From: an uncultured Hymenobacter sp.
Lineage (GTDB): Bacteria; Bacteroidota; Bacteroidia; Cytophagales; Hymenobacteraceae
Direction: 5' to 3'
Assembly: GCA_913776615.1 (NCBI GenBank)
Contig: CAJYPK010000050.1
Span: forward strand, 62,001-126,000
Length of the DNA: 64,000 nucleotides
The translations under genes were made by a program, and so were the position numbers. Positions 32,444 to 51,960 of this stretch are shown piece by piece. The number at the start of each line of letters is the position of its first letter. Position 1 is the stretch's first letter. The notes below the pieces were generated by a model. The model had not been told where the DNA came from and made no database searches. It saw only the letters and a program-made list of their open reading frames with translations.

Positions 32444-33223
32444 ATGCCCCAGCCGACTACCACTATCCGCATCCCCCAGCCCTGCGCCGCAAGCTGGGAC
32501 GCCATGACGCCCGCCACCGCCGGCCGCCACTGCGCCGCCTGTCAGAAAACAGTGGTGGATTTTACCCGGAAGACCGACGCCGAAATCCTGCTGGCGCTAC
32601 GCCAAGCCGCAGGTGAAACCTGCGGCCGCCTGCGGGCCGACCAGGTAGGGCGGCCGCTGGTGATACCCACGGCGGCCCCGCGCTGGCGAATCTGGCTGGG
32701 GGCCGCCCTGGCCCTGGCTGGGATCCTCGGGGCGGGCCGGGTTGCCGCGCAGGCGCGGGCCAACTACTACGCCGGCCCCCAGCCGCTACCTAACGCTGCG
32801 GGCAGCGCGGCCCTCAAACCGACTAGCCCCACTCCTGCCGAGCCAGCCGAATTACCTACCGCAGCTGGCGGGCTGGTGACGATACGCGGCACCGTCAGCG
32901 ATGCCTCCACGCCCACGGGCCTGCCGGGGGCCTCGGTACAGCTGCAAGGTACCGACATCGGCACCTCGACCGATGGGGCCGGCAACTTTTCCTTGTCCGT
33001 ACCAGCCGGGCAGCCGGCGCGGCTCGTCATTTCTTCCGTCGGCTACTCCCAGCAGGAACTGCTGGTTGCAAAGCCCGATACCCAGCAATTGGCCGTGGCA
33101 CTGCACGCGCAGGTACTGGGCGCGTTGGTAATTGTGCAGCCTTGGCCCTTGCATCCACGCAGCTTCTTTGCCTGGAGCAAATACTGGCTGACCAAGCCGT
33201 TCCGCAGGGCAACAGATTACTAA
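32444..33223 (+). CDS. Cys-rich N-domain / TM / CarboxypepD_reg protein, paralogue 1 of 3
   Basis: 259 residues. The cytoplasmic-looking N-domain (1-72) carries Cys14, Trp18, Met21, Cys30-x2-Cys33 then KTVVDF, and Cys60 in TCGRLR. One transmembrane segment follows (about 82-103), then a Pro/Ala linker, then a CarboxypepD_reg-like beta-sandwich (about 147-225: TIRGTVSDAS, GTDIGTSTDGAGNFSL, SSVGYSQQ). The tail ends SKYWLTKPFR. The N-domain resembles one I have seen ahead of TonB-type and regulatory-like domains in this phylum; its function is unknown. Cys spacing suggests metal binding. First of a three-gene tandem array. Confidence 0.8.
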   Translation: MPQPTTTIRIPQPCAASWDAMTPATAGRHCAACQKTVVDFTRKTDAEILLALRQAAGETCGRLRADQVGRPLVIPTAAPRWRIWLGAALALAGILGAGRVAAQARANYYAGPQPLPNAAGSAALKPTSPTPAEPAELPTAAGGLVTIRGTVSDASTPTGLPGASVQLQGTDIGTSTDGAGNFSLSVPAGQPARLVISSVGYSQQELLVAKPDTQQLAVALHAQVLGALVIVQPWPLHPRSFFAWSKYWLTKPFRRATDY

Positions 33224-33247
33224 TAGTCGGCCAGCAAATCACCGCCC

Positions 33248-33970
33248 ATGCCCACATCCTCCCTCAAGATTTCGCGGCCCTGCGCCGAGAGCTGGGACGC
33301 CATGACGCCCGCCACCGTCGGCCGCTACTGCGCCGCCTGCCAGAAAACAGTGGTGGATTTCACGCTGAAATCCGACGCCGAAATCCTGGCTTATTTCCAG
33401 CAGGCTGGCCCCGGCAAAACCTGCGGCCGCTTCCGGCTAGCCCAGGTAGGCCGGCCCCTGCGCCCGGCTCCGCCCGCGCCCAGGCCTGCCCGCTGGCAAG
33501 CCTGGCTGAGCGGCTTGCTGGTATCCGCCGCCACCGCCCAGGGCTGCCAGCCCGCTACTCGTAGCGAACCGCACCCGCTGACCCGGAGCCCAACCGCCAC
33601 CGTCGCGCCCGATTCGCTGGTGGCGCTCGACTCAGCAGAGGTAGCATTTCCGGACGGTACTGAGCGCGTTATCTCGGGACAGGTTTACGACGTCGCCTCG
33701 CAGCGGCCAGTGAGCCAGGCGACGGTGCACTTGCTGCATACTGCGCTGGCGGCTACCACCGATGCCTCGGGCCGTTTCGCCATCAGCCTGCCCGAGGCGC
33801 AGCCCACGCCTCACGGTATTACGCTTCGCCTCACGGCCGCTGGCTATTCGCCCCAGGTACTGGCCGCTGCCACCGACCACCTGCCAACTCATGGCTTGGC
33901 CCTCGCGCATCTCAGCTACCCGCTGCCGCAGATGGTGCTGGGCGATGTGGAAGAACTCAAGGACAAGTAA
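33248..33970 (+). CDS. Cys-rich N-domain / CarboxypepD_reg protein, paralogue 2 of 3
   Basis: 240 residues, 24 bases after paralogue 1. The N-domain is conserved (Cys12, Cys28-x2-Cys31, Cys59 in TCGRF). The middle segment (about 82-98) is shorter and less hydrophobic than in paralogues 1 and 3 and ends in AQGCQP, which resembles a lipobox-like Cys but without a proper signal peptide context. The C-terminal domain (about 140-225: RVISGQVYDVASQRPVSQATVHL, TTDASGRFAISLP) is a diverged CarboxypepD_reg fold. The C-terminal SKYWLTKPF tail is missing. Confidence 0.78.
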   Translation: MPTSSLKISRPCAESWDAMTPATVGRYCAACQKTVVDFTLKSDAEILAYFQQAGPGKTCGRFRLAQVGRPLRPAPPAPRPARWQAWLSGLLVSAATAQGCQPATRSEPHPLTRSPTATVAPDSLVALDSAEVAFPDGTERVISGQVYDVASQRPVSQATVHLLHTALAATTDASGRFAISLPEAQPTPHGITLRLTAAGYSPQVLAAATDHLPTHGLALAHLSYPLPQMVLGDVEELKDK

Positions 33971-34013
33971 CAGATAGCCTCTTTCGCGCCATTAGTCAAC
34001 CTCCCACTGCCCT

Positions 34014-34799
34014 ATGCCCACCGCTACCATCCGCATCCCCCAGCCCTGCGCCGAGAGCTGGGACGCCATGACGCCCGCCATCGCTGACCGCCACTGCGCC
34101 GCCTGCCAGAAGACAGTAGTTGATTTCACCCGGAAGACCGACGCCGAAATTCTGGTGGCCCTGCGCCAAGCCGTGGGCGCAACCTGCGGCCGCCTGCGGG
34201 CCGACCAGGTAGGCCGGCCGCTGGTAGCTCCTTCCCCGGCCCCGCGCTGGCGCATTTGGCTGGGGGCCGCCCTGGCGCTGGGCGGAGCACTGGGGGCGAG
34301 CCAAGCCGCCGCCCAGGCGCGGGCCAACTACTACGCCGGGCCCCAGCCACTGACCGACCCCACGGGCAGCACCGCTCCCGAGCCCAGCCCCCACCTTGCC
34401 GGTGTACCGGCCGAGCCCGCAGCAGCGAACAATGGGCTGACCACGATACGCGGCACCGTGACCGACTCAGCTACGCACGAGCTATTACCGGGCGTAACGG
34501 TGCTAGTGAAGGGCACCGACATCGGTACCTCGACCGATAGGGAAGGTAATTTTACGCTACCCGTACCCGCCAGTAATTCAACGCTTCTCTCCTTCAGCTC
34601 CGTTGGCTTCGTTAGCCAGGAGCGGCTGGTTGCAACCACCGGTACGCAGCCGCTGGTCGTGGCTCTGGCGGCGGATACGCGCGTGTTGGGGGAGGTAATC
34701 CTAGTGGGCGGCGTGCATTTCCAACAGCCTCGGCCCTGGCATCCACGCCGCTTATTCAATTGGAGCAAGTACTGGCTGACCAAGCCATTTCGCGACTAA
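34014..34799 (+). CDS. Cys-rich N-domain / TM / CarboxypepD_reg protein, paralogue 3 of 3
   Basis: 261 residues, 43 bases after paralogue 2. The sequence is much closer to paralogue 1 than to 2: same N-domain (Cys12, Cys28-x2-Cys31, Cys58), nearly identical TM region (RWRIWLGAALALGGALGAS) and linker start (ARANYYAGPQPL), and the same C-terminal SKYWLTKPFR. The regulatory-like domain spans about 145-225 (TIRGTVTDSATHELLPGVTVLV, TSTDREGNFTLP). Arose by local duplication. Confidence 0.8.
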   Translation: MPTATIRIPQPCAESWDAMTPAIADRHCAACQKTVVDFTRKTDAEILVALRQAVGATCGRLRADQVGRPLVAPSPAPRWRIWLGAALALGGALGASQAAAQARANYYAGPQPLTDPTGSTAPEPSPHLAGVPAEPAAANNGLTTIRGTVTDSATHELLPGVTVLVKGTDIGTSTDREGNFTLPVPASNSTLLSFSSVGFVSQERLVATTGTQPLVVALAADTRVLGEVILVGGVHFQQPRPWHPRRLFNWSKYWLTKPFRD

Positions 34800-36587: not shown

Positions 36588-37331
36588 ATGCTGAAACGTG
36601 ATTTTATCAAAAACGCCGCCGCCTTTGCCCTGAGTGCGCTGGTGAGCCCCGCCGTACTGGCCCGGGCGCAGGAAGAGCGTTTCCTGCGCGAGGCCCGTGC
36701 CACGCCGCTGGCCGATGGGCCGTTTACGCTGCCGCCCCTGCCCTACGCCTTCAACGCACTGGAGCCGCACATCGACGCCCGCACGATGGAAATTCACCAC
36801 GACGCGCACCACAAAACCTACGTGTCGAAGCTGAACGAGGCCGTGGCCGGCAAGCCCCAGGAAAAGCTCCCGCTGGCCGACCTGCTCGCCACCGCCAGCC
36901 AGCAGCCCGACGCCATCCGCAACAACGCGGGCGGCCACTACAACCACTCCATGTTCTGGACCCTGCTGGCTCCCAAGGGCGGCGGGCAGCCCACCGGCGC
37001 GCTGGCTACGGCTATTACCAAGGATTTCGGCTCGTTCGAGAAATTCAAGGAGGAATTCGCCAAAGCTGCCACCAGCCGCTTCGGCTCGGGCTGGGCCTGG
37101 CTGAGCGTGGACAAGGCCGGTAAGCTCTTTATTTCCAGCACCCCCAACCAGGACAATCCGCTCATGGACCTGCCCGGCATCCAGCGCGGCACCCCCGTGC
37201 TGGGTCTCGACGTGTGGGAGCACGCTTATTATTTGAAATATCAGAACAAGCGCCCCGACTACGTAGCCGCCTTCTGGAACGTAGTCAACTGGCCCGAAGC
37301 CGACCGCCGCTTCACCACCACGAAGAAATAA
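36588..37331 (+). CDS. sodA: Exported superoxide dismutase, Mn type
   Basis: 247 residues from the ATG at 36588. An N-terminal export signal with KRDFIKN followed by a hydrophobic stretch ending ARAQ resembles a Tat signal with Lys-Arg in place of Arg-Arg. Metal ligands: His in MEIHHDAHH (70/71), His120 in [10 protein letters not shown], Asp208 and His212 in LDVWEHAYY. Gln188 in NQDNPL and the Gly pair before His120 favour manganese over iron. The catalytic domain is complete. Its stop codon is one base before a 29-bp palindrome that fills the gap to chrA. Confidence 0.93.
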
Positions 37332-37411
37332 TGTAGGGTAAGCTTTAGCTTGCCCGGCGTCGGACGAGCCGCGCCCCACCTCACGCCGGGCAAGCTAAAG
37401 CTTACCCTACA
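37332..37411. repeat. Palindromic repeat, family 2 (TGTAGGGTAAGC), copy A
   Basis: Perfect 29-bp arms at 37332-37360 and 37383-37411 with a 22-base loop. It begins immediately after the SOD stop codon and contains the chrA stop codon (37407-37409) in its other edge, so the whole gap between these convergent genes is the element. Copy B is at 48752-48826. Confidence 0.95.
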
Positions 37412-38690
37412 CCAGCAGCCCTGCTAGCAGCGCCGCCCCCACTATCACCACGCTCGGCACCTTTTCCCAGAGTAAGAGCAAGAACGTCAGCCCTACCAGC
37501 ACGGGGTTGAGCGGCAGGTGCCAGGGGGGCAACGGGCTAGGCAGGGGCAATAGGCGGTCGGGCAGCGGGTGGTAGAGCAGCAGCGCCGCTGCGCACACCA
37601 GGCCGGCGCTCACGGCGTTCACCCCTTCGAGCGAGGCTTTTACCACGCGGTATTGCCGCAGGCTGTCCCAGAAGCGGATAACGAAGAATATCAAGAAGGT
37701 ACCGGGTAGAAAAATCCCCACCGCGCCCACGGCGGCCCCCAGTAGCTGCGGGCCGGGGCCGCCCAGCGGCCGCATGGCCAGCGCCCCGATGTAGGAGGCA
37801 AAGGAGAAATTAGGCCCGGGCAGCGCCTGCACCAGCCCCAGCCCCGACAAAAACTCCGGTCCGGTGAGGTAGCGCTTGTACTCCACAAACTCGGCGAAGA
37901 GCAGCGGGGCCAGCACCTGCCCGCCCCCGAAGACCAGCGAGCCGTTGCGGTAAAAATTCTCGAATAGCCGCACCGGCAGCAGCTGCGTGTAGTGCCCCAG
38001 CAGGGCCGCCACTAAGAAGGTGCCCAACCACAGCAAGCCATTCGCCCACTCCACGCGAATGGGCTTCTTGTCGGGCACGATGGCGTGCCGGCGGTAGCGT
38101 AGCGTGGTCACGGCCCCGCCTGCCAGCAGCAACAGCGGCAGCACCCCCGGCAGCTGAAAAAAATACGCCACCATCGAGGCCACTACCATCAGGGCCACCG
38201 AGGTTTTGGTATGGATGACTTTCTCGGCGATGCGGTAGGCCGAAAACGCCACGAAGCCCACCGCCACCGGCTGCACAAACTGCACCAGCCGCGCCGTGAG
38301 CGCCGTGTCGAAGCGGGTGAGCAGCAACCCGGCCAGCGTCATGATGGTAACGGCCGGTAAACACCAGATAAACAGCGTGAGGTAAGCCAGATTAGGCCCC
38401 CCCAGCCGGAAGCCGATGGCCGTCATGGTCTGGGTGGAGGTGGGGCCGGGCAGCAGCGCGCACAGCGCTTGCAGCTCCAGCAGCTCGGCGGCGGTGAGGT
38501 AGCGGCGCTTATGCACGAGCAGCCGAAACATCATGGCCAGGTGCGCCTGCGGCCCGCCGAAGGCCGTGCAGGCCAGCGCCGCTACGTCTTTCAAAAAGAT
38601 GATGCTGCGCACCCGGCGCGTTCGCAGGCCCGAGCGCCGCGGGGGGGGCGTCAGCGATACGGGCGGGGGTGGGGTGGCGTCGGGGAGCAA
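37407..38690 (-). CDS. chrA: Chromate ion transporter (CHR) family protein, two-domain
   Basis: 427 residues, two homologous halves with about ten to twelve transmembrane segments. Each half shows the family motifs: AFGGPQAHLAMM and ALLPGPTSTQ in the first, VFGGGQVLAPLL and QALPGPNFSF in the second. The family exports chromate or transports other oxyanions; the real substrate is unknown. The start is TTG at 38690 (no ATG available); a GTG at 38612, just before the first hydrophobic region, is a good alternative. The stop codon is supplied by the palindromic element. Confidence 0.9.
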   Translation of the reverse strand: MLPDATPPPPVSLTPPPRRSGLRTRRVRSIIFLKDVAALACTAFGGPQAHLAMMFRLLVHKRRYLTAAELLELQALCALLPGPTSTQTMTAIGFRLGGPNLAYLTLFIWCLPAVTIMTLAGLLLTRFDTALTARLVQFVQPVAVGFVAFSAYRIAEKVIHTKTSVALMVVASMVAYFFQLPGVLPLLLLAGGAVTTLRYRRHAIVPDKKPIRVEWANGLLWLGTFLVAALLGHYTQLLPVRLFENFYRNGSLVFGGGQVLAPLLFAEFVEYKRYLTGPEFLSGLGLVQALPGPNFSFASYIGALAMRPLGGPGPQLLGAAVGAVGIFLPGTFLIFFVIRFWDSLRQYRVVKASLEGVNAVSAGLVCAAALLLYHPLPDRLLPLPSPLPPWHLPLNPVLVGLTFLLLLWEKVPSVVIVGAALLAGLLV

Positions 38691-38976
38691 GCAGCAGGGC
38701 GGTAAAACGGGCGTCCGAAGATAAGGAAAAGGCCTAACTATGAAACAGGCTTTTAGGCGCTAGCCTGCGGTAAGGGCCTCCCCCGCCCTTCACCTAACGC
38801 TTACCAAATCCGCCTTCTACCCGGCTTGCCCAGCTGTTCAGCCGGGATTTATACGGAGCTAAAAACGGGTACTTTCCAACTGCATTTGCGAGTAAATCCT
38901 CTCTTTATGAGTCGTATACATCACAGTGGGCTGCGGCTCTCCTTCTACCATCTTCCTTCTTTCCTTTTCCACAGCT

Positions 38977-39423
38977 ATGAAAAACAAATGGCTTTCGCTG
39001 CTGACCTGCGCGTTGTTGTGCTCGTCGGCCGCCGTCTTCACGGCCTGCGACGATGACGACGACGTAACGCCCAGCACTACGTCGGGCACCACAGCCGGTA
39101 CTACCTCGGGCACTACTGCTGGCACCACGAGCGGCACCACCGCCGGCTCAACCACGGGTACCACAAGTGGCACCACTGCTGGCTCGACCACAGGCACTAC
39201 GGCGGGTACTACGGCTGGCTCAACTACCGGCACTACGAGCGGCACTACCGCTGGTTCAACTACCGGCACTACGGCGGGTACCACGAGCGGTTCGACCACT
39301 GGTACCACGGCCGGTACCACGAGCGGCTCTACTACGGGTACCACGGCGGGCACTACGAGCGGCTCTACTACGGGCACTACCAGCGGCTCCACTACCGGGG
39401 GCAGCACCGGCGGCACAACCTAA
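38977..39423 (+). CDS. Surface lipoprotein with Gly/Thr/Ser/Ala repeat region
   Basis: 148 residues from the ATG at 38977. Lipobox FTAC with Cys24, followed by five Asp. An acidic run at positions +1 to +5 of the mature lipoprotein is the Bacteroidota lipoprotein export signal, which predicts surface exposure. The rest (about 33-148) consists only of Gly, Thr, Ser and Ala in imperfect units such as TTSGTTAG and STTGTTAG. No domain; likely a flexible surface stalk. The DNA is a degenerate minisatellite and may vary in length between strains. Followed by a strong terminator. Confidence 0.8.
   Translation: MKNKWLSLLTCALLCSSAAVFTACDDDDDVTPSTTSGTTAGTTSGTTAGTTSGTTAGSTTGTTSGTTAGSTTGTTAGTTAGSTTGTTSGTTAGSTTGTTAGTTSGSTTGTTAGTTSGSTTGTTAGTTSGSTTGTTSGSTTGGSTGGTT
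39075..39420 (+). repeat. Degenerate coding minisatellite
   Basis: About 345 bases of imperfect 12- and 24-base units (GGCACTACN, GGYACCACG and similar) encoding the Thr/Gly/Ser repeat. Synonymous differences between units show it is not freshly expanded. Confidence 0.85.
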
Positions 39424-39430
39424 GCCGGGA

Positions 39431-39488
39431 GCCATACGCAAAAAAGCGGCCCGCCTCAGTTGAAGCGGGCCGCTTTTTTGCGTATGGC
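39431..39488. terminator. 24-bp bidirectional hairpin terminator
   Basis: Arms 39431-39454 and 39465-39488 are perfect complements, with AAAAAAGCGGCCCGC/GCGGGCCGCTTTTTT at the inner end. It lies between the repeat lipoprotein and the convergent dioxygenase gene. Confidence 0.92.
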
Positions 39489-39496
39489 CTGAAAGC

Positions 39497-40474
39497 TTAT
39501 TTCTTCTTGAGGCCCAATTCGATAAGCCGCTCATTCAAGAACTCACCGGCCGTAATGTCGGCCTCCTTCTTGGGATTATCTTCCGTTACGAGGTGCGGCA
39601 GGGCGGCCAGGCTCATTTCGGAGCGCGGGTGCATGAAGAACGGGATGCTGTAGCGCGAGGTGTTCATCTTCTCGCGGGGCGGGTTGACCACGCGGTGGAT
39701 GGTGCTCTTGAGCACGCCGTTGGTGAGGCGCTGGAGCATGTCGCCCACGTTGACTACGATCTGGTCGGGCAGGGCAGTGATGCTGATCCAGGCGCCGTCG
39801 CGGCGCTTCACTTGCAGGCCGTCGGCGCTGGCCCCCATCAGCAGGGTGATGAGGTTGATGTCGCCGTGCTCGGCGGCGCGCACCGCGTCGGCGGGTACGG
39901 CGTCGGGGTCTTCGATGGGGAAGTAGTGAATGGGGCGCAGAATGCTGTTGCCGTTCTTCACTTTGTCATCGAAGTAGTTTTCCGGCAGTTCCAGGTACAG
40001 CGCGATGGCGCGCAGCACGTCCTTGCCGGCGGCTTCCAGGGTGCGGTAGGCCTTCATGGTGCTTTGCTCGAAGCGGGGCACCTCGGCGGGCCAGATGTTG
40101 GCCGGGTAGTCGTTTTTCACCGGGTCATTCTCGTCGAGCACTTCCTGGCCCACGTGGAAAAATTCCTTCAGGTCGCCGGTGTTGCGGCCCTTGGCGTGCT
40201 CTTTCCCCTTGCTGATGTAGCCGCGCTGGCCCGCTAGCTCGGGTACTTCGTAGCTCTGCTTGGCCTGGTCGGGCAGCTGGAAAAACTCTTGCACGTCGGC
40301 GTACAGCTCCTTGGTCTGGTCCTCGTTGAGGCCGTGGTTTTTGAGGGCGATGAAGCCGATGCTCTGGTAAGCATCGCCCAGCTCCTGCACAAATTTGGCC
40401 TTGCGGGCGGGGTCGCCCGAGCGGAAATCCGCCAAATCGAGTGAAGGGATGTGGTCAGGCAGGTTATCAGCCAT
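39497..40474 (-). CDS. Isopenicillin N synthase family Fe(II)/2-oxoglutarate dioxygenase
   Basis: 325 residues. The N-terminal DIOX_N region (IPSLDLADF, IGFIALKNHGL) and C-terminal jelly-roll domain are complete. Iron ligands His203, Asp205 (AAEHGDINLITLL) and His260 (KSTIHRV); co-substrate pair Arg274 and Ser276 (RYSIPFF). Such proteins hydroxylate or desaturate small molecules, and several bacterial members have no known substrate. No biosynthetic partners nearby, so the reaction cannot be assigned. Confidence 0.92.
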   Translation of the reverse strand: MADNLPDHIPSLDLADFRSGDPARKAKFVQELGDAYQSIGFIALKNHGLNEDQTKELYADVQEFFQLPDQAKQSYEVPELAGQRGYISKGKEHAKGRNTGDLKEFFHVGQEVLDENDPVKNDYPANIWPAEVPRFEQSTMKAYRTLEAAGKDVLRAIALYLELPENYFDDKVKNGNSILRPIHYFPIEDPDAVPADAVRAAEHGDINLITLLMGASADGLQVKRRDGAWISITALPDQIVVNVGDMLQRLTNGVLKSTIHRVVNPPREKMNTSRYSIPFFMHPRSEMSLAALPHLVTEDNPKKEADITAGEFLNERLIELGLKKK

Positions 40475-40679
40475 AAAATAAGTAGGGTGGTTACTTGCTG
40501 ATTAGTGACTGTTAACTACTGGTAGCGGGCCGCAACGGCAGCGGGCTTTGCGCGGAGCCCGCCGCTGGCGCAGCCTGCCAGCAGCAACCAGTAGTTACCT
40601 AATGCGAAGGTAATACAAAACCTTATGCCCATCGGTTCGCGTAATGGGCCAGTTACTCACCTTCTTCTGTTTCTTTCAC

Positions 40680-41549
40680 ATGCCTCGCCTCACTGCTCCG
40701 TTTACCGGCTCACTGGCCCTGGCTGCGCTGGCCTTCCTGGCTAGCTGCAGCGCTTCCCAACAAGCTGAAACCACCACTACCGGCCCCGCCGACCGCCCCG
40801 AAGCCATTGGGGCGCAGCGCACTACTTCTACCGTTTCGGGCCAGGCCCAGGCCAAGGGTGGCATTACGCTCACGCCCTACAACGACTCGCCCAAGTTCCC
40901 CACGGCCCAGTTGCGCGTCAACGCGCCCATCGACGGCTCCACGGTACCCAGCGGCGAGGTGGCGTTTTCGTACGACCTCACCAACTTTCAGCTGACCAAG
41001 ATGACGGACAGCGACCACGCCATGCAGATGGCCAACTCGATGAAGGGCCAGCACATCCACAACATCGTGGACAACCAGCCCTACACCGCCCACTACGACA
41101 CCAAGTTCACCAAGCCCATCGCCGACGGTCAGCACGTCATCCTGTCCTTCCTGTCGCGCTCCTACCACGAAAGCCTCAAGCACCGGGGCGCCTACGACCT
41201 GCGCACCATCACGGTGGGCACGCCGGCCCCCGGCACCCCGCCCATGGCCTTCGACGCCAAGGCTCCGCACCTGTTTTATAGCCGCCCCAAGGATAAGTAC
41301 GAAGGCAAAGACGCCCAGAAGATTATGCTGGATTTCTACCTCGTGAACACTACCCTGGCCCCCGACGGCAACAAGGTGCGCGCCACCATCAACGGCAATG
41401 AGTTCATGCTCGACCAGTGGCTGCCCTACATGATGGAAGGCCTGCCCGCTGGCCAGGCAACCATCAAGCTGGAGCTGCTCGACAGCAGCGGCAACCTCAT
41501 CCCCGGGCCGTACAACTCGGTGACGCGGACCATTACGGTAGCGCCCTAA
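40680..41549 (+). CDS. Hypothetical lipoprotein
   Basis: 289 residues from the ATG at 40680. Lipobox LASC (Cys23) followed by a Gln/Thr-rich spacer. The mature part is beta-rich, with an Ig-like pattern (LRVNAPIDGSTVPSGEVAFSYDLTNFQL, then TIKLELLDSSGNLIPGPYNSVTRTITV) and a His-rich stretch KGQHIHNIVDNQPYTAHYD. Conserved-looking but I cannot name a family. It stands alone between divergent and convergent neighbours. Confidence 0.8.
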   Translation: MPRLTAPFTGSLALAALAFLASCSASQQAETTTTGPADRPEAIGAQRTTSTVSGQAQAKGGITLTPYNDSPKFPTAQLRVNAPIDGSTVPSGEVAFSYDLTNFQLTKMTDSDHAMQMANSMKGQHIHNIVDNQPYTAHYDTKFTKPIADGQHVILSFLSRSYHESLKHRGAYDLRTITVGTPAPGTPPMAFDAKAPHLFYSRPKDKYEGKDAQKIMLDFYLVNTTLAPDGNKVRATINGNEFMLDQWLPYMMEGLPAGQATIKLELLDSSGNLIPGPYNSVTRTITVAP

Positions 41550-41583
41550 GCTCTGCATGACAAACGCTTTTTTTAAGCTTTTT

Positions 41584-42969
41584 CTACCCTATTAGCTTCG
41601 TTACCAACGCCTGCACCTCCGGCTTGTCGTAATCCGCTTCTTCCTGAATGTGCGGCATCAGCTGCTGCATGGTCGCCTCCTGCCGCTGGCCCGCCGCCCA
41701 GGCCTCGGCGTAGGGCGTATCGGGCGAAAACGTGACGCGTGAGTACAGCGGCAGCCACTGCCCCGGAAACTGTGCCGCGATTTTGCTTTCGATGCGCTTG
41801 CGGAGTAGGAAGCGCGGGTCAGCCACGTGATCACGCATCTCCACGAAGTTGTAGAGGGCCAGCTCGGCCATCGCGTCGGTGTTGGGCTTGCGCAGGCGCT
41901 CAAACTGGTCGAGCACCGCGCCCCAGTTGTCTTCGCCCAGCTCGTCGAGCAGGCGGTCGAGCACGGTGCAGTCTTCGAAGCCCGCGTTCATACCCTGGCC
42001 GTAGAACGGCACGATGGCGTGGGCCGCGTCGCCGAGCAGCAACACCGAATCCTGGTAGCTCCAGGGCCAGCAGCGAATCGTGACGAGCGAGCCCGTGGGA
42101 TGATCGAAAAACTCGGTGTCGAGCTCCGGCATCAGCGGCACCACGTCGGGAAACACCTCGTCGAAAAACTTCTCCACTTCCTCGGGCGTGCGCAGGCTGT
42201 CGAACGAGAGCTTGCCCTCATAAGGAAAAAACAGCGTAGCGTTGAACGAGCCGTCGAGGTTGGGCAGGGCAATCATCAGGTAATTGCCCCGGGGCCAGAT
42301 GTGCAGCGCGTTCTTTTCCAGCTGCCAGGTGCCGCCCGGCCCCGCCGCGATGGTCAGCTCCTTGTAGCCGTACTCCAGGTACTGCTGCGAATAATCGGCC
42401 CGGTCGAGGCGCTGCATGGCCCCGCGCACCGCCGACCACGCACCATCGACCCCAAACAGCCGCTGGTACGGCACGTCGTACTCGCGGGCGCTGGCCACGT
42501 CGCGCAGGTGCAGCCGGCGACCGGGCAGGTCGAGCCCCGTTAGCTTCTGGCCGAAGGTAATTTCTACGTTGGGCCGGGCCTCTACCAAGTCGAGCAGCGT
42601 GCGGTTGAGGCTGTCGCGGCTCACCGAGAAAATCGCCTGCCCCTCCTGCCCGTAGGGCTGGTAGGTGAGTTGCCCGTGCTGGTCGTGCATCACGCGGCGA
42701 TACATCGGAATGCCCACCTTGCGAATATCGTCGGTAATGCCCACCCCCGCCAGCCCGCGCCAGCCCCGGTCCGAGAGCGCCAGGTTGATGGAGCGAGCCT
42801 CGCGCAGCCCACCCCGGCGGGGGTCGGGCAGGCGTTCGTAGATATGCACCGGGTGGCCCCGCCGCGTGAGGTAGAGGGCCAGCAGCGTGCCCACCAGGCC
42901 CGCGCCCATGATAACGAGCGGCTCGGCCGCGGGTGGCGCGGCGGCGGAGGTAGCGAGAGAAGAATCCAT
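41584..42969 (-). CDS. kmo: Kynurenine 3-monooxygenase
   Basis: 461 residues. FAD/NADPH enzyme hydroxylating L-kynurenine to 3-hydroxykynurenine. FAD-binding GxGxxG motif VIMGAGLVGTLLALYL; RSINLALSDRGWRGL is a KMO hallmark; late FAD motif LLLGDAAHAIVPFYGQGMNAGFEDC; a C-terminal hydrophilic region replaces the eukaryotic membrane anchor. Its product is the substrate of KynU (10.2 kb). Stop codon lies 35 bases from the convergent lipoprotein gene with little room for a terminator. Confidence 0.96.
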   Translation of the reverse strand: MDSSLATSAAAPPAAEPLVIMGAGLVGTLLALYLTRRGHPVHIYERLPDPRRGGLREARSINLALSDRGWRGLAGVGITDDIRKVGIPMYRRVMHDQHGQLTYQPYGQEGQAIFSVSRDSLNRTLLDLVEARPNVEITFGQKLTGLDLPGRRLHLRDVASAREYDVPYQRLFGVDGAWSAVRGAMQRLDRADYSQQYLEYGYKELTIAAGPGGTWQLEKNALHIWPRGNYLMIALPNLDGSFNATLFFPYEGKLSFDSLRTPEEVEKFFDEVFPDVVPLMPELDTEFFDHPTGSLVTIRCWPWSYQDSVLLLGDAAHAIVPFYGQGMNAGFEDCTVLDRLLDELGEDNWGAVLDQFERLRKPNTDAMAELALYNFVEMRDHVADPRFLLRKRIESKIAAQFPGQWLPLYSRVTFSPDTPYAEAWAAGQRQEATMQQLMPHIQEEADYDKPEVQALVTKLIG

Positions 42970-43009
42970 GCGAGGAAGGTAGCCGCAATGCCAGCGGCCG
43001 AATGGGTCG

Positions 43010-43420
43010 CTATTTCAGGCTGGCGAGCGGGTAGATGAAAGACTGGGAGCTGGAGCCATTACGCGGCGACGTGAGGCTGCGCCGGAAGGTAGCCTGGGCG
43101 CTCACCGCCTGGTAGCTGGCCGGCTGGGCCAGGTCGGCTACCAGCAGGTGCGCCAGCTTGCGCATGCGCTGCCTGAGGCTATCGGGCTGCTGCTCGGGCG
43201 AGCCGGTGGGATTGATGACCTCCAGCGTGAGCACCGCCGGCGCGCCGGCGCTGGCCTCGGTGGCCGCAACTTTCACTTGCTCGGCGTGCAGCAGCTGCGC
43301 CTGCCGCTCGAAAGCGGTCCGGTGCTGCTGCGTCAGGGCCACGCTAGGCGCTATTTCTATCTGTGAGCCGCAGGCCGTTAGGCCAGCCGCCAGCAACCCC
43401 AGCCACCAAGGCATTTTCAT
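43010..43420 (-). CDS. Small hypothetical lipoprotein
   Basis: 136 residues from the ATG at 43420 (43432 and 43414 are also possible starts). Lipobox LTAC. The mature part is short and mixed alpha/beta (VALTQQHRTAFERQAQLLHAEQVKV, AVLTLEVINPTGSPEQQPDSLRQRMRKLAHLLVADL) with a Ser-rich tail. No family recognised. Seventeen bases downstream of msrC and probably in its operon. Confidence 0.72.
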   Translation of the reverse strand: MKMPWWLGLLAAGLTACGSQIEIAPSVALTQQHRTAFERQAQLLHAEQVKVAATEASAGAPAVLTLEVINPTGSPEQQPDSLRQRMRKLAHLLVADLAQPASYQAVSAQATFRRSLTSPRNGSSSQSFIYPLASLK

Positions 43421-43437
43421 CTTAGTACCCATTATTT

Positions 43438-43920
43438 TTAAAACCAAGTGGCCGCCAGCTGCACCAATTGCTCTAACGCCTGCTGATCGTCGTGGTCAAA
43501 GTCATTCAGTTTGTCGCTGTCCACGTCGAGCACGGCCACTACTGCGCCGTTTTTGATGATGGGAACTACGATTTCTGATTTCGAGTCGGAGCTACAGGCG
43601 ATGTGGCCGGGGAAGGCTTCCACGTCGGGTACCAGCACGGTGCGGGCCTCGGCCCAGCTCGTGCCGCACACCCCGCGCCCGCGCCGGATGCGGGTGCAGG
43701 CTATCGGCCCCTGAAACGGCCCCAGCACTAATTCTTCGCCCTGCACCACGTAAAATCCGACCCAGAAAAACCCGAAAGCCTGCCGCAAGGCGGCGGCAGT
43801 ATTGGCCAGATTAGCCGTGCGGTCGGACTCGGAAGCAGTGAGTGCCACTAGCTGCGGGTGCAGCTCGGCGTAGCGGGCGGCCTTGGGCTGGCCGGGCGTT
43901 AAAAGCAAGGATTCAGACAT
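43438..43920 (-). CDS. msrC: Free methionine-(R)-sulfoxide reductase (GAF domain)
   Basis: 160 residues, a single GAF domain. Reduces free Met-R-sulfoxide. The three conserved cysteines of fRMsr are present: Cys75 (GPIACTRI), Cys85 (GRGVCGTSW) and catalytic Cys109 (GHIACSSDSKSEIVVP). VLDVDSDKLNDFD near the end is also typical. Length is normal for the family. Upstream neighbour is the MscS channel on the same strand with a 30-base gap. Confidence 0.93.
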   Translation of the reverse strand: MSESLLLTPGQPKAARYAELHPQLVALTASESDRTANLANTAAALRQAFGFFWVGFYVVQGEELVLGPFQGPIACTRIRRGRGVCGTSWAEARTVLVPDVEAFPGHIACSSDSKSEIVVPIIKNGAVVAVLDVDSDKLNDFDHDDQQALEQLVQLAATWF

Positions 43921-43950
43921 AACGAAGCACCAAAATGGACGTCGGCTGGC

Positions 43951-45093
43951 CTACGCCGTAGCCGGCGGGACAACTGTGGTAGAACTAGCAAAGCTACCGC
44001 CCTGGTGCTCGACCGCCTCCACGAGCCGGTAGTTGAGCGACTCCTTCACGTCGAGATACTCATCGTAGCTGGTAGTTTCGACGAAGTATTGCACCGTTAC
44101 TTCCTTGCCCGCCGGCGTGATGGAATTGAATTTCATCTGCACGTCCTTGGTCACGAGCGGGTGGGCCAGCATGGCCTCCACTGCCTCCGCGATAATGGCC
44201 TGGAGCTGGCTGCTGGTCGTTTTCTGGTCGAAATAAATGGTGAAGCCCACCCGCCGCGCCGTGCGCAGGCTCAGGTTGTCGAGGGGCTTGTCGATCATGC
44301 TTTTATTAGGTACCGTGAGGTAGCTTTTCTCGGCCGTGCGCAGGCGCGTGCTGCGGAAGCCAATTTTCTCCACCGTGCCGCTCACCGTACCGGCCGTCAC
44401 GAGGTCGCCCACCCCGAAGGGCTGGTCGATGAAGATGGTAAAGGAGGCCAGCAGGTTTTCCAGGCTTTCCTTGGCGGCAAAAGCCACGGCCAGGCCCCCG
44501 ATGCCCAGGCCCCCGATCAGCGCCGTTACGTTTACCCCGAATACCTGCCCCAGCGCTATCAGCAGGCCGATCACCACCACGAATACCTTGAGCAGATCCT
44601 TGGCAAAGGGTAAAAACTGATTGTCGAGCCGGCGCGTGCCCAGCGAGGCCGTTAGCTCGGCCCGGCGCTGCACTACGAGTAGGGCAAAGTCTACGAGACT
44701 AATAACCACCCACACCACCGTGGCAATCACTCCCAGGTGAAACAACCCCAGGAGCGCCACCTTGGGCCAGGGCTCCACGCCCTTTACCGCCATCACAGGC
44801 AGCGGGTACCGCAATACACTGAATGCCAGATAGAACGAAATCAAGAACAACAGCGCCCCCAGCGGCTGGATGAGCAGATCGTGCAGCTCGCCCTCCGTTA
44901 CGCCGGCCGTGTAGCGCTTGGTAAGCCGAAAGAGCCCCTTGCTCAGCAGGCGCGAGAGTAGTCGGTTGAGCAAAGCACCCAGCAGCAGGATGACGCCGGC
45001 TATTATGTAATCAATCAACTCATTGCCCAATATTTCCCGACGTAAAAAGGCGGGTACCGCGGCAGCTAAAACAGATTCTTGCATAGACAGCAT
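43951..45093 (-). CDS. MscS-type mechanosensitive ion channel
   Basis: 380 residues (377 if the ATG at 45084 is used). About five transmembrane segments (28-45, 75-95, 112-135, 168-185, 190-210). The pore-lining MscS helix is recognisable as TALIGGLGIGGLAVAFAAKESLENLLASFTIFIDQPF, followed by the beta domain (VGDLVTAGTVSGTVEKIGFRSTRLRT) and the C-terminal alpha/beta cage (about 285-365). Releases solutes under membrane tension. Probably first gene of an operon with msrC and a lipoprotein. Confidence 0.93.
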   Translation of the reverse strand: MLSMQESVLAAAVPAFLRREILGNELIDYIIAGVILLLGALLNRLLSRLLSKGLFRLTKRYTAGVTEGELHDLLIQPLGALLFLISFYLAFSVLRYPLPVMAVKGVEPWPKVALLGLFHLGVIATVVWVVISLVDFALLVVQRRAELTASLGTRRLDNQFLPFAKDLLKVFVVVIGLLIALGQVFGVNVTALIGGLGIGGLAVAFAAKESLENLLASFTIFIDQPFGVGDLVTAGTVSGTVEKIGFRSTRLRTAEKSYLTVPNKSMIDKPLDNLSLRTARRVGFTIYFDQKTTSSQLQAIIAEAVEAMLAHPLVTKDVQMKFNSITPAGKEVTVQYFVETTSYDEYLDVKESLNYRLVEAVEHQGGSFASSTTVVPPATA

Positions 45094-45497
45094 AGAAAAC
45101 AGGGAAAAAGCAAGCCTTCTCGATACGCAGGGCCGCCCCCGTCGTTGGCTGGCCAGACCGGCCGCCCAATCCCGATTCTACCCGGCACTAGTGAGGTCTC
45201 GATGAGCTCACCCGCCGCCTTATAGCAGCTTTTCAACATTCAAGAACTAAAAAAAAATAAAAAAATTGAACCTAAGTTTTACGCCCGATAAAAGTAAAAA
45301 AGGGCCAATGCAGGCCGTATGGCCATAAATTGTATTTACCCAAGCAAGCAAGCCTTTCTTTTAATCCGTTTTTTATGTGACTTAATTGTTCTACAATAGT
45401 CTTCTTTGGTTTACTTTGCAGCGCCAACATACTAGTACTAAGATGTTGGTTTCATTCTTCTTCTTCCCCTTCTACCATTTCTTATTTTAAAGTTATC
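45094..45497. other. 404-base AT-rich intergenic region upstream of the ArsR-type regulator
   Basis: Divergent region between mscS and the HTH gene. The stretch 45230-45480 is clearly more AT-rich than the window average, with A-runs (45248-45267). No ORF or hairpin of note. It probably carries both promoters. Confidence 0.6.
45386..45418 (+). promoter_or_regulatory. Promoter-like TTG ... TTACTTTG for the ArsR-type gene
   Basis: One mismatch from TAnnTTTG (45411-45418) with TTG 22 bases upstream (45386-45388). Would give a leader of about 75 nt. Confidence 0.4.
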
Positions 45498-45818
45498 ATG
45501 AAACCATTGCACACCCGCGTTGAAGCGGAACAGTTGGACCGCGCCGCCGCCATGCTCAAAGTGCTCTCGCACCCCAAGCGTCTGGCCATTGTTGACCTGC
45601 TCGGCAAGAGCAAGTCGAAGGAGCACCAGATGTCAGTAACCGAAATCTACCAGGCGCTGGATATCCCCCAAGCAATTGCTTCGCAACACCTTATCACCCT
45701 CAAAGACCGGGGCGTACTGAAGTCGAGCAAAGTAGGTACCAAGATCTACTACTCGCTGGCTGTACCGCAACTGCTAAAAATCATCGACACGCTCGAAGAT
45801 TATTCGGGCCGTATCTAA
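45498..45818 (+). CDS. ArsR-family winged-helix transcriptional regulator
   Basis: 106 residues. Dimeric winged-helix DNA-binding fold: AAMLKVLSHPKRLAIVDLLG (helices 2-3), SVTEIYQALDIPQAIASQHLITLKDRGVLKSSKVGTKIYYSL (recognition helix and wing). No Cys anywhere, so it cannot be a classical metal-thiolate sensor; its signal is unknown. It stands alone with its own AT-rich promoter region and terminator, suggesting a stand-alone or global regulator. Confidence 0.9.
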   Translation: MKPLHTRVEAEQLDRAAAMLKVLSHPKRLAIVDLLGKSKSKEHQMSVTEIYQALDIPQAIASQHLITLKDRGVLKSSKVGTKIYYSLAVPQLLKIIDTLEDYSGRI

Positions 45819-45831
45819 GCAAAAAAATCTC

Positions 45832-45878
45832 GTGCGTGCATAGAAACCCCTTTTGGGGCCTATGCACGCACTTTTTTT
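45832..45878 (+). terminator. Terminator after the ArsR-type gene
   Basis: GTGCGTGCATAG (45832-45843) pairs with CTATGCACGCAC (45860-45871) followed by seven T; the loop itself contains CCCC/GGGG. Confidence 0.9.
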
Positions 45879-46008
45879 GAAGCGATTTTGAGCGAATTTT
45901 GTATTCTAGCTGACCAAGGTAGGTACATCTAATTACGGCTAAGTAGGAGTTTTAAGGGAAATTTCATCTACCGCCTAATTGCTCAGCTCAATTTTTGCCA
46001 GCGACAGC

Positions 46009-46063
46009 GCCAAAAGCTCGACGGGCTACCAGCACTAAGCTGGTAGCCCGTCGAGCTTTTGGC
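46009..46063. terminator. 24-bp hairpin at the 3' end of hemA
   Basis: Perfect arms 46009-46032 and 46040-46063 with CACTAAG loop. Lies 20 bases beyond the hemA stop and on the far side of the ArsR terminator; likely terminates hemA. Confidence 0.8.
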
Positions 46064-46083
46064 GTTAATAGCAGCGCGTAGAA

Positions 46084-47364
46084 TCAGGCCACGGTGGGCT
46101 GGTGCTCCAAATCGAAAATATTCGTCAGCAGGGGCAGCAGTTGCTCGGCCTCGTCGCGGCGGCAGGCAGCCTTGAGGTGCAGCACGTGTTGCTTGAGCAC
46201 TTTCTGCATGAAGGCACGAGTGGCCTCATCCAGTAGCTTGGCTTCGGCGGGGGTAGCTTTCTTCTGGAAGCGGTCCAGCTCCTGCTGGCGCAGCTGCTCC
46301 AGGCCGGCTTTCATGCGCTGGATAAGCGGCGACACCATCATCTCGCGGCTCCAGTCGGCAAAGTCGGACAGGCTCTCGGCAATGATGGCCTGCACCTGCG
46401 GCACGGCGGCCAGGCGCTGCTCCAGCGCGGCCGAGGCTTTGCTCTGGATGGTATCGACGTTGTACACCAGCACGCCGGGCACCTGCTCCACGTCGGCGGC
46501 CACGGAGCGCGGCACCGAGAGGTCGATGAAGAACTTATAGCTCAGCACGTCGAGGTTGGCCACTAGATCGTGGGTGAAGAAGGGCGTTTCGCGGTTGATG
46601 GACGAGATAATCACATCGGCCTCTCGCAGCGTTTCGGCCAGATCTTCGAAATTGGCGATACGCAGCTGGCCGGGGGCAAACTCCGCGGCCAGCACTTCGG
46701 CCTTCGAGCGGGTGCGGTTGCAAAGCGTGACGCTGGCAAACGCCTTGCTGTCGGCCAGGTGGCGGCACACATCGCTGCCGATTTCGCCCAGGCCCACCAC
46801 CAGCACGCGCGGGCTGGCTACGTCGGCCGTCAGCTCTTCAACCAGCTCCAGGGCGGCGTAGCTCATGGAAGCGGCGCCGTCGCGAAAGCGCGTTTCCTGC
46901 TGCACGCGCTTATTGGCGAAGAAGATGGTGTGCAGCAGGCGGTGCAGGAAGGGGCCAGCCGCATCGGCGTCGGCGGCCCACTGATAGGCTTGCTTTACCT
47001 GGTTGATAATCTGCATGTCGCCCACTACCTGCGCGTCGAGGCCCAGGGCTACCTCAAACAAGTGCCGCGTGGCCGCGTCGGCGTCGGGGTAGAGGTCGAA
47101 ATAAGCGGCGAAGCTACCGGCATCGGGCCGGTGCTTGAGCTCGCCCAGCGCCCGGATGATGGCGGCCGAATAGTCGTCGTCGTGCGCGTAGTAGATTTCG
47201 GTGCGGTTGCAGGTGCTGAGCACGAGCACATCACCCAAGTGAAGCTCGGTGCGCAGTTGCTCCAGAAAGCGGCGGCAGGCGGCCTCGTCCAGTGCCAGCA
47301 GCTCGCGGATGGCGAGCGGGGCATTACGGAAAGATAAACTAACGGCCTTAAACGGATGGGACAT
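46084..47364 (-). CDS. hemA: Glutamyl-tRNA reductase
   Basis: 426 residues from the ATG at 47364; the frame is open to 47481 but passes the promoter. Reduces Glu-tRNA to glutamate-1-semialdehyde, first committed step of C5 heme synthesis. Catalytic Cys52 in LSTCNRTEIY, the tRNA-binding block GDMQIINQVKQAY, the NADPH motif VLVVGLGEIGSDV and the dimerisation helix at the C-terminus are all present. A perfect minus-strand TAnnTTTG box is at 47394-47401. Divergent from the histidine kinase gene. Confidence 0.95.
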   Translation of the reverse strand: MSHPFKAVSLSFRNAPLAIRELLALDEAACRRFLEQLRTELHLGDVLVLSTCNRTEIYYAHDDDYSAAIIRALGELKHRPDAGSFAAYFDLYPDADAATRHLFEVALGLDAQVVGDMQIINQVKQAYQWAADADAAGPFLHRLLHTIFFANKRVQQETRFRDGAASMSYAALELVEELTADVASPRVLVVGLGEIGSDVCRHLADSKAFASVTLCNRTRSKAEVLAAEFAPGQLRIANFEDLAETLREADVIISSINRETPFFTHDLVANLDVLSYKFFIDLSVPRSVAADVEQVPGVLVYNVDTIQSKASAALEQRLAAVPQVQAIIAESLSDFADWSREMMVSPLIQRMKAGLEQLRQQELDRFQKKATPAEAKLLDEATRAFMQKVLKQHVLHLKAACRRDEAEQLLPLLTNIFDLEHQPTVA

Positions 47365-47393
47365 AGCACGGGCCGGCCCAAGGGACCGGCCTG

Positions 47394-47401
47394 CAAAATT
47401 A
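47394..47401 (-). promoter_or_regulatory. -7 promoter box (TAATTTTG) for hemA
   Basis: Perfect TAnnTTTG on the minus strand; leader of about 22-25 nt. Confidence 0.6.
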
Positions 47402-47538
47402 CGGTATAAACAGCTGGCACGGAAACAGAAAACCAAGCCATTGGGTTCGGGCGGCCGGCGCGGCGCACAAACCCGCGCCATTCTTCGTTGAACGCGCTAA
47501 CTCGCGCTCCGGGCTCCGCGCCCGACCTTTACCGTTCT

Positions 47539-48747
47539 ATGCTGCCGCCTCTTTACGACCAAAAAGCCCGCATTAAGCTCGCAGTCTTGCTTATGGCCCT
47601 GCTCATTGCCGGGGCTACCGTGGTATACACCAACGTGTTGGTACAGCGCCTTTCGGAGCAGGAGCAGCACCAGATTGATTTGTACGCCAAAACGCTGCGC
47701 TACCTCATTAGTACCGAGGACACGAAAAATCTTCAGTTTTTGACGGAGCAGATCATTGAAGCCAATAAGACCATCCCCGTTATTTTGACCGACGGCGAGA
47801 ATATCAACGATGCCAAAAACCTGGGGCTGGGTAAAAACCTGCCGGCCGCCGACTCGGTGCAGCGCATGAACAGCGTGCTGCTCGACATGCAGAAACGCCA
47901 CCCCCCCATCGTAATTGAGCTGCCCGGCGGCGTACGCAACTATATTTTCTACCAGGATTCGCGGTCGCTGCGGCAGCTACGGACCTACCCGCTGGCGGCG
48001 CTGGCCGTTATCGCCTCACTTTCGATGATGGCCTACATTGCCTTCAGCTACTCCCGGCGGGCCGAGCAAAACCGGGTGTGGGTGGGCCTGGCCAAGGAAA
48101 CCGCCCACCAGCTGGGCACTCCGCTCAGCTCGCTCGTGGGCTGGCAGGAGTACCTGCGGCAGTCGGACCGCTTTCGCGACGAGCCCATCGTGGAGGAATT
48201 GGGCAAGGATATTAAACGTCTGGAAATCATCACGGAGCGGTTCAGCAACATCGGCTCGGTACCGGTGCTCAAGGCCGAAAACCTTTATCACACCACCCGC
48301 AACGCCATTGCCTACCTCGAAAGCCGGGTGTCGCGCAAGGTCAAGTTCAGTATCGAAACCGACCTGCCGCTCGACACGCCCGCTTGCCTCAACGTGCCAC
48401 TCTTCGACTGGGTGGTGGAAAACATCTGCAAAAACGCGGTCGATGCCATGGACGGCCGCGGCTCCATCACGCTGCGGCTGCGGCGCGTGAAACGGCGGCG
48501 CGAATGGTGGCGCTGGCGCAAGCCCGGCCCCCAGGTGGCCATCGACATCACCGACACGGGCAAGGGCATCCCTAAAAACAAGCTCGAAAACGTGTTTCTC
48601 CCCGGCTACACCACCAAAAAGCGCGGCTGGGGCCTGGGCCTGGCGCTGGCCCGCCGCATCATCGAAAACTACCACGAAGGGCGGCTCTTCGTAAAATGGA
48701 GCGAAGTAGGCAAAGGCACCACGTTTCGCCTGATTCTGAATCAGTAA
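47539..48747 (+). CDS. Membrane sensor histidine kinase, orphan
   Basis: 402 residues from the ATG at 47539; a TTG at 47488 is an upstream option. TM1 (about 14-33), periplasmic sensor region (about 34-150), TM2 (about 155-175), then H-box LAKETAHQLGTPLSSLVGW with His190, N-box VVENICKNAVDAM, G1 DITDTGKGIPK, G2 GWGLGLALARRII. The TAHQLGTPLSSL form of the H-box is typical of a Bacteroidota HK group. No HAMP domain is obvious and no response regulator is adjacent. Its stop is 4 bases before palindrome copy B. Confidence 0.92.
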   Translation: MLPPLYDQKARIKLAVLLMALLIAGATVVYTNVLVQRLSEQEQHQIDLYAKTLRYLISTEDTKNLQFLTEQIIEANKTIPVILTDGENINDAKNLGLGKNLPAADSVQRMNSVLLDMQKRHPPIVIELPGGVRNYIFYQDSRSLRQLRTYPLAALAVIASLSMMAYIAFSYSRRAEQNRVWVGLAKETAHQLGTPLSSLVGWQEYLRQSDRFRDEPIVEELGKDIKRLEIITERFSNIGSVPVLKAENLYHTTRNAIAYLESRVSRKVKFSIETDLPLDTPACLNVPLFDWVVENICKNAVDAMDGRGSITLRLRRVKRRREWWRWRKPGPQVAIDITDTGKGIPKNKLENVFLPGYTTKKRGWGLGLALARRIIENYHEGRLFVKWSEVGKGTTFRLILNQ

Positions 48748-48751
48748 TAGA

Positions 48752-48826
48752 TGTAGGGTAAGCTTTAGCTTGCCCGGCGTCAGGGATGCGTCACCTCACG
48801 CCGGGCAAGCTAAAGCTTACCCTACA
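48752..48826. repeat. Palindromic repeat, family 2 (TGTAGGGTAAGC), copy B
   Basis: Arms 48752-48780 and 48798-48826 are perfect 29-bp complements, identical to those of copy A at 37332-37411; only the loop differs (17 bases). It fills the gap between convergent histidine kinase and rfbA genes and supplies the rfbA stop codon (TAA, 48817-48819). Confidence 0.95.
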
Positions 48827-49692
48827 ACCAGCTGCTCGGGCAGGCGCAGCAGGTAATCGCCGTAGCCGCTTTTACGTAGTGGCTCGGCGATTTTGCGCAG
48901 CTGTTCAGCGTCGATAAAGCCCTGGCGGAAAGCCGCTTCTTCGATGGAACCCACTTTGAGGCCCTGGCGCTGCTCTAGCACCCGCACAAACTCCCCGGCC
49001 TGCATCAGGCTCTCGAAGGTGCCGGTGTCGAGCCAGGCGGTACCCCGGCCCAGGATGCCCACTTTGAGCTTGCCCCGGCGCAGGTACTCCCGGTTTACAT
49101 CCGTGATTTCGTACTCCCCGCGGGGGCTGGGCTCCAGGTTTTTGGCAATTTCTACTACGTCGTTGTCGTAGAAATACAGGCCGGGGACGGCGTAGTTGCT
49201 CTTGGGCTGGGCCGGCTTTTCCTCAATGCTGAGGGCCACTTTGTTAGCATCAAATTCGACCACGCCGTAGCGCTCGGGGTCGTGTACGTGGTAGGCGTAT
49301 ACCACCCCACCGTCGGGGTTACTGTTGGCCTTCAGTAGCTCTTCCATGCCTTCACCGTGGAAGATATTGTCGCCCAGCACGAGCGCCACTTTATCCTGGC
49401 CGATAAAATCGGCACCCAGCACGAAGGCCTGGGCCAGCCCGTTGGGCACTTCCTGCACCACGTACTGAAAGTTGCAGCCCAGATTTTGGCCGTCGCCGAG
49501 CAGCTTCTTAAACTGCGCCTGATCGTGGGGAGTGGTGATAATCAGGATTTCCCGAATACCCGCCATCATCAGGATCGACAGCGGATAATAGATCATCGGC
49601 TTGTCGTAGACGGGCATGAGCTGCTTGCTCACGGCCAGCGTGAGGGGGTGCAGCCGGGTGCCGGAGCCGCCGGCGAGAATGATGCCTTTCAT
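48817..49692 (-). CDS. rfbA: Glucose-1-phosphate thymidylyltransferase
   Basis: 291 residues. Makes dTDP-glucose for deoxysugar synthesis. N-terminal nucleotidyltransferase motif [18 protein letters not shown], then [27 protein letters not shown], and [22 protein letters not shown]. Length as in RmlA. Nine bases downstream of the epimerase gene. The last codons and TAA come from the palindromic element, giving a C-terminus LVVG. Confidence 0.96.
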
Positions 49693-51865: not shown

Positions 51866-51960
51866 AAGGTGAACTGGTGATTGGTGAACTAGTGAGGGAT
51901 GAACTGGTGAGGGGTGAAATGGTAAAGCCTGCTAGCTCACCATTTCACCGTTTCACTAGT
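51866..51960. repeat. Word repeat, GGTGAAATGGTGAG type, imperfect inverted pair
   Basis: GGTGAACTGGTGATTGGTGA-like words (51868-51923) face CTCACCATTTCACCGTTTCA (51936-51955). Begins one base after the rfbB ATG and includes the galE stop (51956-51958). Same words as the 65-bp repeat at 14618. Confidence 0.82.

Follow-up and report, generated by a model that had tools for sequence, protein, structure and literature searches.

The stretch analysed here, called the window, comprises 64,000 nt of contig CAJYPK010000050.1 (positions 62,001 to 126,000, forward strand; assembly GCA_913776615.1) of an uncultured Hymenobacter sp. Two of its gaps between convergent genes, one between a superoxide dismutase gene (sod) and a chromate transporter gene (chrA), the other between a sensor histidine kinase gene and rfbA, each contain a palindrome. 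A first-pass annotation had described these palindromes as identical perfect arms with differing loops, and this was confirmed. In the sod/chrA gap perfect 29-nt inverted arms were located at 37332-37360 and 37383-37411 with a 22-nt spacer, and in the histidine kinase/rfbA gap the same 29-nt arms were located at 48752-48780 and 48798-48826 with a 17-nt spacer (window coordinates). Each arm opens with one T, followed by GTAG and an imperfect hairpin of 18 nt whose loop is 4 nt long; the repetitive extragenic palindromic (REP) unit is GTAGGGTAAGCTTTAGCTTGCC. What the first-pass annotation overlooked is the link to a transposase: both palindromes are, with high confidence, REP doublets forming hairpins (REPINs), that is non-autonomous miniature elements in which two GTAG-tagged REPs are paired in inverted orientation, with a REP-associated tyrosine transposase (RAYT) encoded on the same contig (C50) as the likely agent of their spread in trans. 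The features at the two sites are as follows.

36588-37331, plus strand: Fe/Mn superoxide dismutase gene (sod; Pfam/NCBIfam), its stop abutting REPIN 1
37332-37411, no strand: assigned as REPIN copy 1, spacer 37361-37382 (repeat search and RNA folding)
37333-37354, plus strand: REP 1 left, GTAG tag and 18-nt imperfect hairpin (arm matching, folding)
37389-37410, minus strand: REP 1 right, inverted (arm matching)
37407-37409, minus strand: stop codon TAG of chrA within the REP tag (gene call); identical TAG in the sister species G107, which has no REPIN there
37407-38612, minus strand: chromate transporter gene chrA, start codon uncertain (Pfam/NCBIfam)
47539-48747, plus strand: sensor histidine kinase gene with histidine-kinase ATPase domain (Pfam/NCBIfam), its stop 4 nt before REPIN 2
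48752-48826, no strand: assigned as REPIN copy 2, spacer 48781-48797 (repeat search and RNA folding)
48753-48774, plus strand: REP 2 left (arm matching)
48804-48825, minus strand: REP 2 right, inverted (arm matching)
48817-48819, minus strand: stop codon TAA of rfbA within the arm, protein end ..V-V-G-stop (gene call, relatives compared)
48817-49692, minus strand: rfbA, glucose-1-phosphate thymidylyltransferase (NCBIfam)

Genes were called with a home-made codon model, which places stops more firmly than starts. The plus-strand stops, said in the first-pass annotation to lie 1-4 bases from the repeat edge, end at 37331 directly at the repeat (sod) and at 48747, 4 nt before it (kinase). The opposite edge was said to hold the minus-strand stops in different frames, and the right arm indeed contains TAG of chrA at 37409-37407 and TAA of rfbA at 48819-48817.

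The repeat family across the genome

At up to 3 mismatches the arm was found 246 times in the 6.08 Mb genome (130 forward and 116 reverse matches), compared to 0 + 0 matches for the reversed pattern in the same genome; the abundance of the arm is far beyond chance. The genome-wide count proposed as a check in the first-pass annotation therefore identifies the window pair as two of many copies. For classification, a sample was used that started from about 100 listed arms out of 246, exact matches heading the list; it covered 66 stretches of the genome and comprised 151 arms (≤4 mismatches) in 68 doublets, each of two inverted REPs and a spacer, and 15 singlets. None of the 83 elements lies inside a called gene, and the repeats are thus both repetitive and extragenic. 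The commonest doublet length from tag to tag is 78 bp (30/68). The tag frequencies G 0.96, T 0.96, A 0.94 and G 1.00, determined over 136 arms for which the search pattern itself contained GTAG and ≤4 mismatches were allowed, and the short-loop (4-nt) hairpin are those of GTAG REPs. Upon RNA folding the whole elements reached z-scores of -10.6 to -15.2 and -59 to -66 kcal/mol, while a single 22-nt arm folds only modestly (z -1.9; 11/200 shuffles equally good). With Rfam at gathering thresholds only a tRNA was detected in the window, and the REPINs matched no known structured RNA family.

RAYT genes and their REP families

The Pfam Y1_Tnp cutoff was passed by four matches in the genome. One of them, at G000:C50:154866-155474, lies 28.9 kb past the window end, and a REPIN of the window family adjoins it on either side; the TAA stop codon of this gene is written by one of the two. 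Its product scored 83 bits against NCBIfam NF047646 (REP-associated tyrosine transposase), narrowly above the cutoff of 80, remained below the own cutoff of the IS200 model and matched the TnpA_REP structure PDB 4er8 (E=1.2e-6), as is characteristic of a HUH/Y1 family protein with REP-type signature. Of 32 aligned RAYTs (three from this genome and the 29 best same-genus loci; the Y1_Tnp gene on contig C22 was left out), 90% or more share the motifs NHVH and NPVKAGL. Among the matches listed, the best one from a named organism was from Hymenobacter rigui (51%).

Two further RAYT genes carry REP families of their own: the C1 RAYT (G000:C1:79823-80392) is bordered by GTAACACCAAGC repeats with 192 arms genome-wide, and the C49 RAYT by GTTGCGCGGAC repeats with 90 arms genome-wide. 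Three RAYTs each with its own flanking REP family (246, 192 and 90 arms) correspond to the known RAYT-REP arrangement. The family of the C1 RAYT (GTAACACCAAGCTCCAGCTTGGTG, 192 arms) is also present in the window at 22464-22538 and 63639-63715, both times between convergent called genes, and its tag GTAA also supplies the TAA end of the C1 RAYT gene.

Location relative to genes and transcript ends

Of the 68 doublets, 42 have co-directional, 17 convergent and 9 divergent neighbouring genes; for the 15 singlets the numbers are 8, 3 and 4, respectively. The convergent placement described in the first-pass annotation holds for both window copies, whereas most classified copies lie between co-directional genes. 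Placement at gene 3′-ends was borne out: of the gene 3′-ends that face a doublet, 69/76 are no more than 15 nt away from it, as are 22/60 of the facing gene starts, and 15/17 convergent doublets are that close to both neighbours. The 42 co-directional REPINs are closer to the end of the upstream gene in 30 cases, closer to the start of the downstream gene in 8 and tied in 4 (p=0.0005). Copies were mostly neither within genes (0/68) nor between divergent genes (9/68), the two locations that the first-pass annotation had named as speaking against it.

A mechanism in keeping with this distribution would be that the RAYT recognizes each REP as a single-stranded hairpin, cuts and joins it, and that insertions persist mainly at gene 3′-ends, where an 80-bp hairpin would cost least and possibly also protects or ends the transcript. 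Alternatively, the palindromes could be bidirectional transcription terminators of the host, selected and spread for that role. Whichever strand is read, the hairpins are very stable (-59 to -66 kcal/mol), 15 of the 17 convergent REPINs are close to both stops, relatives lacking the REPIN often have other palindromes in the same gap, some with a T-run (judged by eye), and the chrA-direction exit of copy 1 (TTATTTCTT) is T-rich, the only one of the window's four exits to be so. However, a T-tract (≥5 T in 8) follows the hairpin at 24/136 exits, compared to 13/136 at 20-30 nt further out (p=0.076), nine doublets lie between divergent genes, a transposase gene is flanked by these very repeats, and elsewhere among the genomes the corresponding gap holds REPs of other families. 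With a hairpin directly followed by a T-tract at only 24/136 exits, most REPINs are not canonical intrinsic terminators, and the terminator explanation is considered very improbable. The first-pass term 'terminator-like' is accordingly plausible by position and fold and is not matched by the T-tracts. The sigma-70/terminator scan had a loop limit of 8 and was therefore blind to REPIN hairpins. A role of the REPINs in transcripts would rather be 3′-end protection or trimming after upstream termination than intrinsic termination.

Stop codons and protein C-termini

Two of the three inward reading frames of the arm contain a stop, TAG at arm bases 2-4 and TAA at 7-9, so that a gene hit within its final codons or directly behind them has its protein terminated immediately. 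That the element can supply stop codons, as had been claimed, was found for 29/76 facing gene ends (12 TAG, 17 TAA), and read-through in the third, open frame for 0 genes among the 76. Assuming random independent frames, the chance of no open-frame case is (2/3)^29 = 8e-6. A further 40/76 genes have their stop 1-13 nt before the element, in phases of 11 TAG, 13 TAA and 16 open. Selection against read-through would explain both the lack of open-frame cases in the arm and the near-equal phases of the stops before the element.

These numbers bear on another explanation, a gene-end cassette selected to supply stop codons and C-termini. Stops inside the arm at 29/76 ends with no open-frame read-through would fit such a cassette, as would the RAYT genes themselves, whose stop overlaps their own flanking repeat in 12/32, lies 0-12 nt before it in 13/32 and does neither in 7/32 (the automatic count assigns the C50 gene, whose TAA is in fact part of the REP, to the 0-12 nt class). 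On the other hand, in the 40 genes with a stop of their own 1-13 nt ahead of the element the phases are near equal (11/13/16), C-termini of relatives vary by few residues with or without the element, and the chrA end is the same in G107 without the REPIN. A dedicated gene-ending device is hence even less credible than host terminators, and the coincidence with stop codons is regarded as a side effect of the arm sequence together with purifying selection.

C-termini were compared with those of relatives lacking the REPIN, as had been proposed, and the claim that the element writes a stop codon in each gap was supported for rfbA and is doubtful for chrA. Around chrA, arms were found in 1/30 loci (this genome) and sod beside chrA in 5/30. 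In G107, which is 98% identical and lacks the element, C-terminus and TAG are unchanged; G107 has GTGTAGGG here, which could be a site never occupied or what a copy left behind when it was lost. In the sod/chrA gap of G107 (L110), GGTAGGAGGGTAAGAGGG-type units form a long inverted repeat that fills the gap. Around rfbA, arms were found in 3/30 loci (this genome, G107 and G081) and the kinase gene beside rfbA in 16/30. The G081 case is a separate insertion with the protein end ..RSV-TAG, and in the nearest relatives without REPIN rfbA ends in VMGG, VMGA, VIGE and others, compared to VVG here. Arms were also found in 3/14 loci (this genome, G107 and G102) both at an amine oxidase/LysR gap and at coaE (both by Pfam); in the former gap G079 and G028 have a different REP family instead, and in the latter the arm of G102 is in another frame. 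Since C-termini shift by few residues, the element rewrites protein ends modestly.

At three loci of other species (L253, L254, L276) the corresponding convergent gaps are filled by different REP-like palindromes, whose tag gives the TAG of the gene in L254 and L276; in L253 the gene ends earlier with TAA. GTAG as a mere pre-existing target or stop site was considered and rejected as a general account, because the TAA class (17), located deeper in the element, is at least as large as the TAG class (12); for chrA alone it may apply.

Comparison with same-genus genomes

The comparison set comprised 120 same-genus genomes, including the present one (119 others). At least one arm at ≤2 mismatches was present in 38/120 genomes and a RAYT homologue at E≤1e-20 in 87/120. 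With a cut chosen after data inspection, at least 20 arms (≤2 mismatches) were present in 6/7 genomes with a RAYT ≥57% identical over most of its length, compared to 6/113 others (Fisher p=1.7e-6). G042 has a 94-residue RAYT fragment (64%) and no arms; when it was counted in, the values were 6/8 and 6/112 (p=6.5e-6). Among the listed hits, a compensatory stem change (GTAGCG...TTGCG, outer pair G-C to C-G) was detected in G012, G031, G032, G041, G053, G063, G065 and G069.

In the 12 REPINs shared with the sister species G107, arms are identical at 508/528 positions (96.2%), flanks at 2482/2779 (89.3%) and spacers at 331/389 (85.1%), where the value for the arms is biased upward as only arms ≤4 mismatches from the consensus were recognized. 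The arms being more conserved than flanks and spacers argues for constraint on the arms rather than recent copying, the two options left by the first-pass annotation. At 13 sites comparable by their flanks, G107 has a REPIN at 11, a single arm at 1 and nothing at 1 (the coaE site was compared separately); some shared sites were fetched via chosen genes, and these counts are thus no unbiased retention rate. A recent duplication or gene conversion would account for the identical 29-nt arms at the two window sites. Against it, the rfbA copy is common to G107, with flanks about 88% identical (212/240), the spacers of the two copies differ, no DNA outside the arms is common to both sites, and perfect arms occur at roughly 100 places, all of those among the matches listed. 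This explanation was therefore rejected and is regarded as the least likely of all.

Besides the bias in the arm values, several observations weigh against the assignment as RAYT-mobilized REPINs. RAYT-driven mobility is proposed from sequence, no movement having been observed directly, only between-species site differences. The orientation classes (17/42/9 convergent/co-directional/divergent) are close to the 12.4/40.4/15.2 expected by gap count (p=0.12); they depart from the gap-length expectation (p=0.004). The fourth Y1_Tnp gene (C22) has no evident REPs in the 150-170 nt around its matched part. G058, G072, G073, G079, G091 and G105 have at least 20 arms without such a close RAYT, and may represent orphan populations, diverged RAYTs or incomplete assemblies; G099 has a 57% RAYT yet 3 arms. 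Moreover, the tag variants GTGC/GTGA depart from GTAG in G009 and others, and one G050 hit (GTAGCG...TTGCA) loses the outer pair.

Spacer inversion

The spacer is inverted between the two species at 3/12 shared REPINs (L108 vs L140; L081 vs L250; L101 vs L264) and direct at the nine others, the direct call at L059 being weak (3.5 vs 0.0). At rfbA the inversion is an exact 29-nt reverse complement between this genome and G107. Inverted spacers were found at 3/4 convergent sites and 0/8 others (p=0.018, post hoc), and all 4 convergent sites had been reached via chosen genes, i.e. not blind. As a speculative and rather unlikely generalization, REPINs might flip in place, and those between convergent genes would then be invertible hairpins (by cruciform or single-strand RAYT processing or replication template switching), the arm serving as a portable stop-codon end that is used by the RAYT gene, too. 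If this were true, inverted spacers would document in the sequence itself that the hairpins form in vivo.

Relation to known systems

Comparisons refer to excerpts of the cited papers. As in the REPINs of Bertels and Rainey (2011, PMC3116915), a conserved REP pair in inverted orientation encloses a variable spacer, forms a hairpin, is extragenic and has a matching set beside a RAYT gene, and doublets exceed singlets (68 to 15 here); in contrast to those, the arm sequence differs, the host belongs to the Bacteroidota and the commonest length is 78 bp. Di Nocera (2013, PMC3733652) described that GTAG REP termini often supply the TAG stop of flanking open reading frames (ORFs) and that most convergent REPs in two species examined lie <20 bp from both ORFs. 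The GTAG tag, the short loop, head-to-head dimers and the location near gene 3′-ends are shared with those REPs, whereas the arm here also gives TAA (17/29) and the tag is GTGC/GTGA in related genomes. TnpA_REP subclass 2.4 is listed for Cyanobacteria, Bacteroidetes and other phyla; its signature comprises NH[IFV]H, WQ and YIxNNP, and REPs are often inserted in frame into the gene (PMC6006769). The C50 RAYT resembles this subclass in NHVH, FWQ, Y-x-x-NNP and the REPs flanking the gene; it differs in having YVLNNP for YIxNNP and a reading frame without REP. GTAG plus palindrome and an HUH transposase are also found in the REP/TnpA_REP pairs of E. coli, S. maltophilia and Marinomonas (PMC8266576), the Marinomonas REP having the same TTTA loop as here, while the stems differ. 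In many cases, REPs have further been described as directly following the rayt stop codon or lying very near to it (PMC2817692). A literature search on repetitive extragenic palindromic sequences in Hymenobacter found none. The phenomenon is thus already known in other bacteria, to which this repeat family and host add a further case.

Other repeats in the window

A dispersed inverted repeat (CCGCAGATTTAACGGATTTAACGGATTT) has several copies in the window (4249-4393, 4556-4620, 12942-12994, 13191-13254 and 16911-16948). A perfect inverted repeat with 65-nt arms of GTGAAATGGTGAG-like units is located at 14618-14776, with similar units at 51869-51944, and at 32446-34315 a 145-nt segment occurs three times at 83-86% identity, including a 300-nt pair at 84%.

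Significance

The three RAYT-REP pairs in one genome extend REPIN/RAYT biology to a genus of the Bacteroidota. They provide a natural experiment in which one can follow how mobile elements of this type come to occupy gene ends, alter C-termini by few residues and perhaps invert in place. For annotation they serve as a warning that a C-terminal V-G may derive from a mobile element.

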